In this document: piece by piece, positions 17,976 through 22,699 of the stretch
Position numbering within the stretch: the first letter of the stretch is position 1
Layout of the letters: each line of letters begins with the position of its first letter
DNA from: Acidobacteriota bacterium
GTDB taxonomy: Bacteria; Acidobacteriota; Terriglobia; Terriglobales; Acidobacteriaceae
NCBI GenBank assembly: GCA_003225535.1
Contig: QIAL01000309.1
Location: forward strand, 1-37,652
Length of the DNA stretch: 37,652 nt
Direction: 5' to 3'
Program-made: the position numbers and the translations under genes
Notes under the pieces: model-generated
What the model saw: only the letters and a program-made list of their open reading frames with translations
Told to the model about the DNA's origin: nothing
Database searches by the model: none

Positions 17976-20942
17976 ATGGCGTCGAAGTCTAATTCACGTT
18001 CTGTCCCCTTTGTTCCTGACGAGCGCCAGTGTGAAGCGATCGAACACGTCCACGGTCCGATGCTGGTCGTCGCTGGAGCCGGCACGGGTAAGACGTCGGT
18101 TCTGACCCATCGCATCGAGCGGTTGGTGAAGGAAGGGCATGCCCGCACCGACGAGATTCTTGCCCTGACTTATACGGTTAATGCCGCCGAGGAAATGCAG
18201 GAGCGGGTACGCAAGTTGCTGGGTGGAAAAATCGTGCAGGCTCTGACCTTTCACGATTACTGCCTGAAACTGTTGAAGCGCGTAGGTAAAGATTTCGGCG
18301 TGCTCGATGAGAAGGACCTCTGGATTTATCTGCGGCGGCGCATCCACGACTTGCGTCTGGAGCACTACATTCGAGCTGCCAACATCGGGCAGTTCCTCAA
18401 TGACCTGCTGGACTTCGTGAACCGGTGTCACGACGAATTGGTGACGCCGGAGAAATATGCTGACTATGTCGAACGCATCGAACGGCGCGAAGTCCCGATT
18501 CCACGGGTGGTGAAGTCCAAGATTGCGCTTGATGATGAGGAGGTACTGGGCCGATGCCGGGAGATTGCCCGCGTATTCTCGACGATCGAGGGCTGGCTCG
18601 CGGAAGAAAACCTCGGGACCTTCAGCCATATGATCACGCGGGCGCACGCCCTGCTGCACAGCGATGAGTCTGTGTTGGCCGAGGCACGCCGTGGCGCCCG
18701 GTACATCCTTGCCGATGAATTCCAGGATGCCAACTTCGCGCAGATCAAGATTCTGACCCGCCTGGCGGGTGCCGACGGGAATCTTTTTGCGGTGGGCGAT
18801 CCTGACCAGTCGATTTACCGATTCCGTGGGGCATCTAGTGAGGCCTTCGAACTCTTTTATCGAAATTTCCCTGCGGCCAAGCGTGTGGTGCTGGAAAAGA
18901 ACCGGCGTTCGATCACTCCGATCTTGCAGACGGCTTTCGCCGTCATCAATGAGAATCCTCCAGTGTTCGCCAAGAGCGGCAGCAGCGCGTTTACGTATCA
19001 CCGAGTGCCCCTGAAATCGGCTCGTGATGAGGAGTCCGCCGCCTCCGCATTGCAACCGGCAAACCAGCCGGTGACCGCGATTGTCCTGAAGGATCGCAGT
19101 ACGGAAGGGCCCGACCTCGTCGCTTATTTGCGCGAGGCGCAGCGCAAGTCGAGATGCAAGTGGTCGGACTTCGGAGTGTTGTATCGTTCCCACCTGCACC
19201 GTGACGATCTGGTACAGGAACTAGCGGAGGCCGGGATTCCATTTGTGATCGAGAGCATGGATGTCTCGGATACTCCTGAGGCCCGTGATCTGTTTGCGTG
19301 CTTGAACGTGATCGTTTCCAGCGGAGATGACGTCAGCTTGATGCGCGTGGCGGGCTTGCCGTGTTTTCGAGTCAACCCTGAGCAGTTGCGGCAAGAGCTG
19401 CGTGCCATCGCGCGCGACAATCGCGAGGCCAAGGTAGTGCCTCTGTTCACCGCGCTCGACCGCGTCGACGGCGGCGCAGAGGTCGTAGCGCGGGTGCGGC
19501 GAGTGCGTGAAAGCATCCAAGGTCGCAACGCCAAAGGACGAGTTGCACTCGACATTGTGGTCCGGGAATTTGTCCTCGACACGTCCTCGCCCATCCTGCA
19601 GGCAGCCTTGCATTTTGTGGAGGATTGGGAGAAGAAGAGGATCAACAAGACCGCTGACCTTGAAGAGCTCGTCGACTACCTCGGCTATTTTCGCGAGGCG
19701 AATGGCGTCATACCGCTGCGGTCGGATGAGAACGAAAACGCAGTTCGCCTGATGACGGTCCACGGGGCCAAGGGACTTGAGTTTCCGCATGTCTTCATTC
19801 TGCGCGCTCTGTCTCCGTCCTTCCCATCTTCGTACAAGGAGACACTCGTTGCGTTCCCACGGGAATTGCGCGATCCCGATTCTCTGACCGAGGCGGATGA
19901 CAAAACGCTGCATGAGCAGGAGGAGCGGCGCCTGTTTTACGTGGCGATGACCCGGGCGCGGGATTCGCTGCGCATCTACGCGCGCGAGGGAACGGGCAAG
20001 ACCGATAAGACTCCGCCGGGCTATTTGCGGGAGTTGATCAAGAACAAAGCTGTGGCGCCATGGTTCCGTGCCATTCCGGCGGGGGGTGCACAAGCGACTC
20101 TCGAAATTGCCGCTGCGGCGTCCCCACTTTATCCCGAAGAATCGCAAACCACTCGTTGGTTCGAATTGGCGGTTTTAGAAGGACTGCACAAGCGCCTTAG
20201 CGCGTCGGCGGTCGAAACCTATCAGCGGTGCGGTTTGCAGTTCAAGCTGGAGCGGGACTGGCGCATCGCTGCCAAGCCTGCAGCGGCGATGCAATATGGC
20301 GCGGCGATTCATCGTGTGCTCAAAACCTACTTTGAGTCAATTCGGCTCGGTCGGCCGAAGAGTGACGAGGAAATCATCGAACTCTTCTGCCTGGATCTGG
20401 CCAGCGCCAAGATTCAGGAAGCATATCAGCACGAACTCTACGAGAAGCAGGGGATCGTGCAATTGCAGGATTTCCTATCGAAGGCACGTTCAATTCCCGC
20501 CTCGCAGGTTCTGCACACGGAAGAATCCTTCGAGTTCAAGGTGGGAGAGACGACCGTGGTCGGTCGCATCGACCGGATCGATCAGCGCCCGGACGGAACC
20601 GTCGCCATCATCGACTACAAGACGGGTAAGGCGCGCGATCAGGAATCGGCGGACGAGAGTCTTCAGCTGTCCCTGTACGCCATTGCAGCGAAGGAGAAGT
20701 GGAAGTACAGCGTCGGAGCTCTGATTTTTCACAACCTGGAAGAAAACGTTCCCGTCATGACCTCGCGGTCGGAGTCACAGTTGCTGTCGGCTCGCGCCTG
20801 CGTCGAAGATGCAGCCCAGGGAATTGCCGATGGTGTGTTCGAGGCGAAGGTGGGGCAGCACTGCAGCTTCTGCGCGTATCGGAGTCTTTGTCCTGAGAAA
20901 GAAAAGCGCATTCCACGGCTGGTAAGAGTTAGTGTGACCTAA
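17976..20942 (+). CDS. UvrD/Rep-type ATP-dependent helicase fused to C-terminal PD-(D/E)XK nuclease with Fe-S-type cysteine motif
   Basis: 988 aa: VVAGAGTGKTSVLTHRI (I), ADEFQDANFAQ (II), VGDPDQSIYRFRGA (III), LMTVHGAKGLEFPHVF (V), RRLFYVAMTRARDSL (VI); C-terminal VGRIDRIDQRPDGTVAIIDYKTGK nuclease motif and HCSFCAYRSLC cluster. Confidence 0.9.
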   Translation: MASKSNSRSVPFVPDERQCEAIEHVHGPMLVVAGAGTGKTSVLTHRIERLVKEGHARTDEILALTYTVNAAEEMQERVRKLLGGKIVQALTFHDYCLKLLKRVGKDFGVLDEKDLWIYLRRRIHDLRLEHYIRAANIGQFLNDLLDFVNRCHDELVTPEKYADYVERIERREVPIPRVVKSKIALDDEEVLGRCREIARVFSTIEGWLAEENLGTFSHMITRAHALLHSDESVLAEARRGARYILADEFQDANFAQIKILTRLAGADGNLFAVGDPDQSIYRFRGASSEAFELFYRNFPAAKRVVLEKNRRSITPILQTAFAVINENPPVFAKSGSSAFTYHRVPLKSARDEESAASALQPANQPVTAIVLKDRSTEGPDLVAYLREAQRKSRCKWSDFGVLYRSHLHRDDLVQELAEAGIPFVIESMDVSDTPEARDLFACLNVIVSSGDDVSLMRVAGLPCFRVNPEQLRQELRAIARDNREAKVVPLFTALDRVDGGAEVVARVRRVRESIQGRNAKGRVALDIVVREFVLDTSSPILQAALHFVEDWEKKRINKTADLEELVDYLGYFREANGVIPLRSDENENAVRLMTVHGAKGLEFPHVFILRALSPSFPSSYKETLVAFPRELRDPDSLTEADDKTLHEQEERRLFYVAMTRARDSLRIYAREGTGKTDKTPPGYLRELIKNKAVAPWFRAIPAGGAQATLEIAAAASPLYPEESQTTRWFELAVLEGLHKRLSASAVETYQRCGLQFKLERDWRIAAKPAAAMQYGAAIHRVLKTYFESIRLGRPKSDEEIIELFCLDLASAKIQEAYQHELYEKQGIVQLQDFLSKARSIPASQVLHTEESFEFKVGETTVVGRIDRIDQRPDGTVAIIDYKTGKARDQESADESLQLSLYAIAAKEKWKYSVGALIFHNLEENVPVMTSRSESQLLSARACVEDAAQGIADGVFEAKVGQHCSFCAYRSLCPEKEKRIPRLVRVSVT

Positions 20943-20952
20943 AATGCGGGGA

Positions 20953-21067
20953 CTGTCATTCCGAGCGCAGCGAGGAATCCCTAATCTCCGGCAATGCTTG
21001 TTGGGTAGGGATGCTTCGACTCCGAACGAGTTCGCTTCGCGATCTCGTTCTCCGCTCAGCATGACAG
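20953..21067. repeat. Palindromic-ended element, TGTCAT..ATGACA family (copy 4)
   Basis: CTGTCATTCCGAGCGCAGCGAGGAATCCCTA...GGGTAGGGATGCTTCGACTCC...CTCAGCATGACAG. Confidence 0.8.
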
Positions 21068-21100
21068 GATGGCTACTTTGTAGAATCCCGAAACCTTTCC

Positions 21101-21133
21101 AAAAAAACTTAGGGGACGCATTGAGCGTCCCCT
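21101..21133 (-). terminator. Rho-independent terminator of a short minus-strand unit
   Basis: Minus strand AGGGGACGC-TCAAT-GCGTCCCCT followed by AAGTTTTTTT; perfect 9-bp stem plus U-tract. Confidence 0.8.
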
Positions 21134-21154
21134 GTTGACTTCGTACGGAACTTG

Positions 21155-21196
21155 CTAGTGTTTCTTTTTCTTTTTTGCCTTTTTCTTGGTTGCCAT
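21155..21196 (-). CDS. Putative 13-aa lysine-rich micropeptide MATKKKAKKKKKH
   Basis: ATG GCA ACC AAG AAA AAG GCA AAA AAG AAA AAG AAA CAC TAG on the minus strand, preceded by GGGAGAATAGGAACA (SD-like), flanked by promoter and terminator. Confidence 0.45.
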   Translation of the reverse strand: MATKKKAKKKKKH

Positions 21197-21260
21197 TGTT
21201 CCTATTCTCCCTTCCATTCTTCATGGAAATGTGCAGTGATGTTTTACTGCAACTAGTTGA

Positions 21261-21289
21261 TGTATAGAGTTAATGAAAAATGAAGTCAA
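21261..21289 (-). promoter_or_regulatory. Sigma70-type promoter for the short minus-strand unit
   Basis: Minus strand TTGACT (21289-21284), 17-nt spacer, TATACA (21266-21261). Confidence 0.6.
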
Positions 21290-21568
21290 GAAAAAAATGA
21301 TGATCGATTCGCGCAAATTGTGGCACCAAAGTCACGACGAAAGAATTTCTTCGACGAATGTCAACCATTATTTTGCAGGAAACGTTCGTGAGATTCCGAG
21401 TTGCGACCTCGTTGATCGAACCATGACGAGAAATTTCCAATTGCACAAGGAGCACAACCTGCAAAAGCAGAGGTCGGACGTTGGCAGGTGCGCTGACTCG
21501 CGTGAAGCCAATGCTCTCGCTCGCTCATCTATAATGAAAACGCGAAATCTTCGCGAGGAGCCCGATTC

Positions 21569-22699
21569 ATGGCCTCTTTTGACGATGTTGTCATCATCTC
21601 CGGCTGTCGCCTTCCGGTTGGAAAATTTCAAGGTAGTCTCGCCGATTTCACTGCGCCGCAGTTGGGCGCCATGGTGGTGCGCGAGGCGGTGAAGCGTGCT
21701 GGTGTTGATCCCGCGCAGGTCGATGAATGCATCATGGGGAACGTGATCTCCGCCGGACTCGGGCAAAATCCCGCGCGACAGGCGGCAATCTTCGGCGGAC
21801 TAACTCCGGCGACAGGTGCCATGACAATCAACAAGGTGTGCGGCTCAGGATTGAAATCTGTGGCGCTCGCAGCGCAAGCGGTGCAGACCGGAAACAGTTC
21901 GATCGTCGTTGCGGGCGGCATGGAATCGATGAGCAATGCGCCCTACCTTCTTCCACAAGCGCGCAAGGGATACCGTCTGGGCAACGCGCAAGTGATCGAC
22001 TCGATGGTGAATGACGGGCTGTGGGATATCTACAACGACTACCACATGGGCATCACGGGCGAGAACGTCGCGGAGAAATATGGAATCACGCGCGAGGAGC
22101 AGGATGAGTTCGCGGTGAATTCTCACCGGAAGGCTGTTGCTGCGATCAAGGAGTGCCGCTTCAAGGCGCAGATCGTGCCTGTGGAGATTCCGGCGAAGAA
22201 GAAGGGCGCGCCTCCCACCATCTTCGACAAGGATGAGAGCCCCCGAGAAGACACGACCATTGAAGTTTTACGTTCGCTCAAGCCGGCATTCAAGAAAGAT
22301 GGAACTGTAACGGCGGGGAATGCGCCCGGGGTGAATGATGGTGCCGCCGCAGTTGTAGTCACGAGCGCCAAGCGCGCCGCGGAACTCGGGGCCAAGCCGA
22401 TGGTGCGCATTGTTGCGCAGGCCACGAGCGGCGTGGAAGCCAAATGGGTCATGATGGCCCCGGTGGGGGCTGTGCGACAGATTTGGGATAAGACGGGTTG
22501 GAAGAATGAAGATGTCGATCTCTACGAATTGAATGAGGCATTTTCTGTTCAGGCGCTTGGCGTCATGCGCGAGTTGGGACTGAATCCTGACAAGGTCAAC
22601 GTGATCTACGAGATGATCCGCCGGGATGTGAAGCGGGGGATCGCGGCGCTTTGCCTTGGCGGGGGGAATGCAGTGGCGATGGCGGTGGAGCGCGACTAA
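21569..22699 (+). CDS. Acetyl-CoA acetyltransferase (thiolase), lacking the conserved GHP catalytic-His loop
   Basis: 376 aa: [76 protein letters not shown]; expected NGGAxALGHPIGxSGARVLxTL missing after NV. Confidence 0.9.

Follow-up and report, generated by a model that had tools for sequence, protein, structure and literature searches.

Bacterial histone-H1-like proteins and the lysine tails of HU are much longer proteins, or the tails of longer proteins. One H1-like protein, AlgP, combines its repeat tail with an N-terminal domain; it has been described as binding DNA and is found in association with polyphosphate granules (PMC9239181). A second group of described systems, SgrS/SgrT and VcdRP, comprises short independent transcripts with conserved RNA structure, a very small ORF and an intrinsic terminator; the 29-aa VcdP acts on citrate synthase (PMC8672173).

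Here we describe a unit on the minus strand of the window (the whole 37,652-nt stretch of Acidobacteriota DNA that was analysed) that resembles both groups. Its peptide family shares with AlgP, chlamydial Hc2, the Burkholderia and Bordetella H1-like proteins and the lysine tails of HU a Lys/Ala/Pro/Thr tail with KKAAKK and AKKPAKK repeats, the closeness in tail composition extending to the polyphosphate-associated AlgP (PMC9239181). As in the bacterial H1-like proteins, acidic and aromatic residues are almost nil and the chain is presumed to be a disordered polycation. Unlike those proteins, the whole micropeptide is only 12-32 aa and has its own promoter and terminator. The layout is that of SgrS/SgrT and VcdRP (PMC8672173), but the ORF is the most conserved part of the unit in the window's genus; unlike VcdP, the window micropeptide is nearly pure lysine. 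A search of the open-access literature returned no report of this micropeptide locus, and it appears to be a new, lineage-wide micropeptide gene. We favour, with a probability of roughly 0.6, the reading that the unit yields a stand-alone mRNA whose product is a polylysine peptide, free and disordered, with affinity for nucleic acid or some other polyanion.

The unit and its reading frame in the window's genus

The features of the unit and its surroundings are as follows.

21289-21101, minus strand: whole unit, made up of promoter, two-hairpin leader, start site, 13-codon ORF and intrinsic terminator
21326..21336, plus strand: conserved upstream element ACCAAAGTCAC (GTGACTTTGGT on the minus strand), shared by many members of the genus and by several genera beyond it
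21284..21289, minus strand: -35 hexamer TTGACT, from the sequence; TTGAC invariant among 30 diverse family members
21261..21266, minus strand: -10 hexamer TATACA after a 17-nt spacer, from the sequence; TATA invariant among 30 diverse members
21232..21251, minus strand: leader hairpin 1 (GCAGU...ACUGC), from the fold, lying within a few nt of the probable start of the transcript
21211..21229, minus strand: leader hairpin 2 (UUUCCAU...AUGGAAG), from the fold
21202..21213, minus strand: start region AAGGGAGAATAG, likely ribosome-binding; invariant and mostly unpaired in the fold
21155..21196, minus strand: micropeptide ORF MATKKKAKKKKKH, stop TAG; peptide identical in 34 genus records
21134..21141, minus strand: AAGTCAAC in the 3´ UTR, occupying the site of AAGGCAAC in other genera; degenerate in the window's genus
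21101..21133, minus strand: intrinsic terminator, AGGGGACGC-loop-GCGTCCCCT, then AAG and T7
21569..22699, plus strand: thiolase gene (Pfam PF00108/PF02803), divergent neighbour
17976..20942, plus strand: UvrD/REP helicase and PD-(D/E)XK nuclease gene (addA-like), convergent neighbour

The initial annotation had proposed a self-contained minus-strand unit, and conservation, codon pattern and synteny strongly support this. Its TTGACT-N17-TATACA promoter is present and kept in relatives as TTGACa/t-17-TATACa/c, with a -10 hexamer that matches the consensus at 4/6 positions and lacks the final T, which is why the window promoter was not listed in a strict sigma-70 scan. The perfect 9-bp stem (21133-21111, minus strand) and T7 tract that it had described are likewise there, with AAG between them; most relatives have a GGGGACGC-type stem, and variants are compensated. 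The predicted transcript, from the sigma-70-type promoter to the terminator, would be roughly 150 nt. What did not hold was the Shine-Dalgarno AGGA placed beside the ATG, which relatives do not conserve; invariance is seen instead for AAGGGAGAATAG (21213-21202), and GGGAGAATA in this start region is near-invariant family-wide. The ACCAAAGTCAC element, ~40 nt upstream of the -35, is a possible regulator site.

The 13-codon, 42-bp coding region was found where the annotation had put its 13-aa lysine peptide (21196-21155, minus strand); it is conserved, and its codon pattern supports selection. With three mismatches allowed, the ORF pattern matched once in the window, and 100 shuffles gave no match. 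Another ATG lies upstream in the same frame (MEGRIGT-MATKKK...) and was considered as the start, but its frame is broken in several relatives and we therefore place the start at MATKKK. When the 211-bp unit was used as a DNA query, all 45 genus genomes gave matches: most of the unit was matched in 43, at 82-98% identity, and in the remaining two the match was confined to the ORF portion of a second locus (see below). In 34 orthologous genus records, a few of which share one genome, the peptide is always MATKKKAKKKKKH, and the eight variable ORF columns all fall at codon position 3, an outcome with a chance of ~2.5e-5 by simple counting (14/42 columns are third positions; relatedness ignored). 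Every one of the 30 nt past the stop is variable in these records. This pattern indicates that the amino-acid sequence of MATKKKAKKKKKH is under selection. The genus probably includes Candidatus Sulfotelmatobacter, since the exact window peptide occurs in its records and their thiolase neighbours are 85-89% identical to the thiolase of the window.

Distribution and gene order

A covariance model built on 21 leaders (R1) matched 128 of 200 genomes of the order, in 48 of 57 genera and nearly always in one copy. With a second model covering promoter and leader and built on 30 diverse members (R3), we detected one copy in each of 36 sampled family genomes (36/36) and none in 261 genomes of other Acidobacteriota families. 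Scanning a sequence collection for the start context gave at least 119 stretches; all of the listed matches were Acidobacteria, mostly named Acidobacteriaceae, Terriglobales, Edaphobacter, Granulicella, Terracidiphilus, Acidobacterium or Candidatus Sulfotelmatobacter. A loose KKH-stop pattern applied phylum-wide was abandoned, drowned in chance matches from AT-rich genomes. Promoter, peptide and terminator are all kept in relatives, and this conservation across the family is decisive against chance.

A 42-bp coding region beneath the reach of gene callers is thus found in every sampled genome of a large family of soil bacteria with its neighbours kept, and few protein genes so short would have evolutionary support this strong. 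The promoter-leader model finds such genes by their frame, not by the ORF. Carriers include cultured strains, among genomes named Edaphobacter, Granulicella and Terracidiphilus, which makes tests possible.

The gene order in the window is hrcA-grpE-dnaJ-rsmE-addA-like, unit, thiolase. Counting records, several of which stem from one genome, the thiolase gene lies upstream and divergent in 185/185 in which it was found, in agreement with the divergence first noted; the addA-like gene, where within reach, lies downstream in convergent orientation (131/131); and rsmE is downstream on the same strand in 65 and on the opposite strand in 25. This arrangement bears on a further proposal of the initial annotation, a Lys-rich attenuator, in which ribosome stalling on the peptide would control a downstream gene in response to lysine. 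The Lys-codon run does precede a terminator, and rsmE does follow on the same strand in several genera (the 65 records). In the window, however, as in all 131 records with addA-like, the gene behind the terminator is convergent, the thiolase gene is upstream and divergent, and rsmE has the opposite orientation in 25 records. Furthermore, there is no adjacent lysine gene, the codon run and its length vary freely, and the folds that were computed showed no conserved antiterminator. With a convergent gene behind the terminator and rsmE in varying orientation, gene order largely rules out the attenuator, which we consider extremely improbable.

Between the addA-like gene and the unit (window ~20948-21070) lies a GTCATTCCGAGCG...CTCAGCATGACAGG stretch that resembles dispersed intergenic repeats; a search for inverted repeats (>=12) found none.

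Composition, codons and proposed action of the peptide

Outside the window's genus, the ORF encodes longer peptides of the histone-H1-tail type, such as MATKKAAKKAPAKKAAKKAAKKK, MATKKAAKKAAKKPAKKAAKKK and MATKKKAKKKSSKKH. The 178 distinct leader and ORF sequences collected encode 96 distinct peptides of 12-32 aa, composed of 54.4% K, 30.5% A, 7.4% T, 2.6% P, 0.1% D and about 0% R, with Thr, Pro, His and Ser as the minor residues after Lys and Ala. All but two of the 178 sequences end in KK or KH. Lysine is encoded 1731 times (471 AAA, 1260 AAG), alongside no AAC or AAT, no AGA or AGG, one CGN, two GAN and 23 AGC codons; the set was chosen for >30% Lys, a filter that alone cannot yield the missing Asn and Arg codons. 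On these counts, selection is for lysine as such, beyond charge or A-richness.

The codon counts also speak to the idea that the A-rich stretch goes untranslated, serving as an (ARN)n tract for the Hfq distal face that mimics a lysine ORF. AAA and AAG codons fit A-R-N triplets and Hfq-like genes are present, but such a tract would permit AAC, AAT and AGN, and beside the 1731 Lys codons there are 23 AGC but no AAC, AAT, AGA or AGG. In addition, ORFs of many lengths share the conserved ATG and stop ahead of the terminator. We reject the tract on the codon counts and regard it as having next to no chance of being correct. As judged from the sequence patterns, we have high confidence that the unit is a translated gene.

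In the stand-alone mRNA that we favour, the sigma-70-type promoter would give a transcript that opens with the two conserved hairpins, as the pattern of conservation suggests. These 5´ hairpins may protect the mRNA and hold the start site open, and the open, invariant AAGGGAGAATAG would then allow translation of MATKKKAKKKKKH. From its composition, the product would be an unfolded polycation, a histone-H1-type tail without the body, that could attach to DNA, RNA/ribosomes or polyphosphate whatever the sequence and so tune compaction or condensation. The peptide has the Lys/Ala/Pro-rich, Arg- and acid-poor make-up of H1-like tails, with disorder presumed, and its composition makes it a probable polyanion binder. 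Of the nucleic-acid-binding micropeptide in the initial annotation, the micropeptide part thus stands, while binding is, on composition, the likeliest of three options. Against our preferred reading, a chromatin protein of just 13 to 23 residues would be very short, and the reading does not explain why Lys is so strictly preferred to Arg. By the curated models tried, the peptide is outside every H1-like family: in NCBIfam, no model matched a 23-mer, and a 30-mer reached at best 17.8 bits against a cut-off of 100 and 15.3 bits against one of 80, both far too low. A bodiless histone-type tail would be a minimal natural system for the action of polylysine on nucleoids, ribosomes and polyphosphate.

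The peptide could instead associate with the ribosome or RNA polymerase, being sized and charged like the smallest extra ribosomal proteins, and not bind DNA or polyphosphate. Its extreme basicity, the universal single-copy locus in the family and the frequent neighbour rsmE, which encodes a 16S rRNA methyltransferase, are in line with this role. Unlike ribosomal proteins with fixed contacts, however, the peptide drifts in length (12 to 32 aa) and K/A content, and it is absent outside the family, which leaves this role quite unlikely.

Leader RNA, lineages without the reading frame and a second locus

RNA folding of the window unit gave z = -3.8, and in the majority of leaders two short hairpins form, with AAGGGAGAATAG left open behind them. 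In an alignment of 28 diverse leaders, 87.8% of cells in both helices are paired, versus 20-46% when the helices are slid, a figure that is favoured by the structure having been drawn from the aligned sequences themselves. Compensatory double changes were observed in 35 cells versus 13.4 in shuffled alignments, with 0/500 shuffles reaching the observed number, and for these aligned leaders are stronger evidence for the structure than the paired-cell figure. Hairpin 1 has 5/7 pairs changed on both sides and 89.8% of cells paired; for hairpin 2, both sides changed in 3/4 counted pairs. A search of Rfam gave nothing above the gathering score. As in dual-function sRNAs, a conserved RNA structure goes together here with a promoter and a terminator of the unit's own.

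Promoter, hairpin 1, GGGAG and terminator are also kept in lineages in which the ORF has decayed (g31, g65 and one g34 genome). The ORF-less loci noted were L312-L318, L320, L323 and L159. In these, the ATG has become ACG and the Lys codons are gone, with indels in the ORF region and conserved ends. Because some lineages lost the ORF and kept the promoter, hairpin 1 and the terminator, an RNA function beside the peptide is possible. The g31 and g65 loci have rsmE behind the unit on the same strand, while the g34 case has the thiolase gene and no rsmE match; either the RNA has its own role at ORF-less loci or the promoter is kept for rsmE. The peptide is thus not indispensable in all of these lineages, and the RNA alone may matter.

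Between stop and terminator, most genera have an AAGGCAA-type motif, for which the window has AAGTCAA. GGCAA was found in 73/109 family spacers versus 4.6 expected from shuffles. In class A units such as L179, L182 and L220, AAGGCAA(C) was seen a few nt 5´ of the terminator stem.

These observations raise the prospect of a transcript that works in addition, or even chiefly, as a small RNA pairing with targets through AAGGCAAC as the seed, the peptide being a second product. The parts that outlast the ORF, the enrichment of the 3´ motif and the Hfq-like genes in the genome would all fit. Nevertheless, the third-position-only variation and zero Asn codons reflect selection for the peptide wherever there is an ORF, the 3´ motif is degenerate in the window's own genus, and in most ORF-less lineages, the g34 case apart, the promoter may serve the same-strand downstream rsmE. 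We judge such base pairing unlikely, and of the sRNA initially suggested only a possible second role is kept. Stated more broadly, there is a tentative case for a family-universal dual-function locus, consisting of a structured RNA, a conserved 3´ element and a free, lysine-only histone-tail peptide of 12-32 residues, with functions that would be separable because the RNA persists in several lineages that no longer have the peptide.

The window's own genome (G000) carries the second locus (L174; contig C356, 6712-6750, minus strand), encoding MATKKKAKKKKH, which is near-identical to the window peptide, behind its own separate promoter. Promoter and leader differ (TTGACA in relatives, CGCAATATCTTG, CAAGGGAAAATCGTTCACGGAGG), the terminator is GCCTCTT...AAGAGGC, and a hydantoinase B gene is divergent from it in three of the loci examined. 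The R3 model gave no match at this locus, and there are therefore two different units encoding almost the same peptide. The second ORF was matched in nearly all genus genomes. Loci similar to it were seen in several other genera; a class B consensus pattern missed even known holders such as G099 and G119, and its non-matches in other genera are uninformative.

We also noted, on the minus strand of an Edaphobacter sp. record (L193, NZ_JAPWKF010000010.1), a 124-aa DUF6496 protein with an H1-like N-terminal tail. Unlike the micropeptide, it carries the DUF6496 domain at its C terminus, and neither the class A promoter nor the leader hairpins are present, but like the micropeptide it begins MATKKANKKAAKKAVKK and shares the GGGAGAATAG start context.
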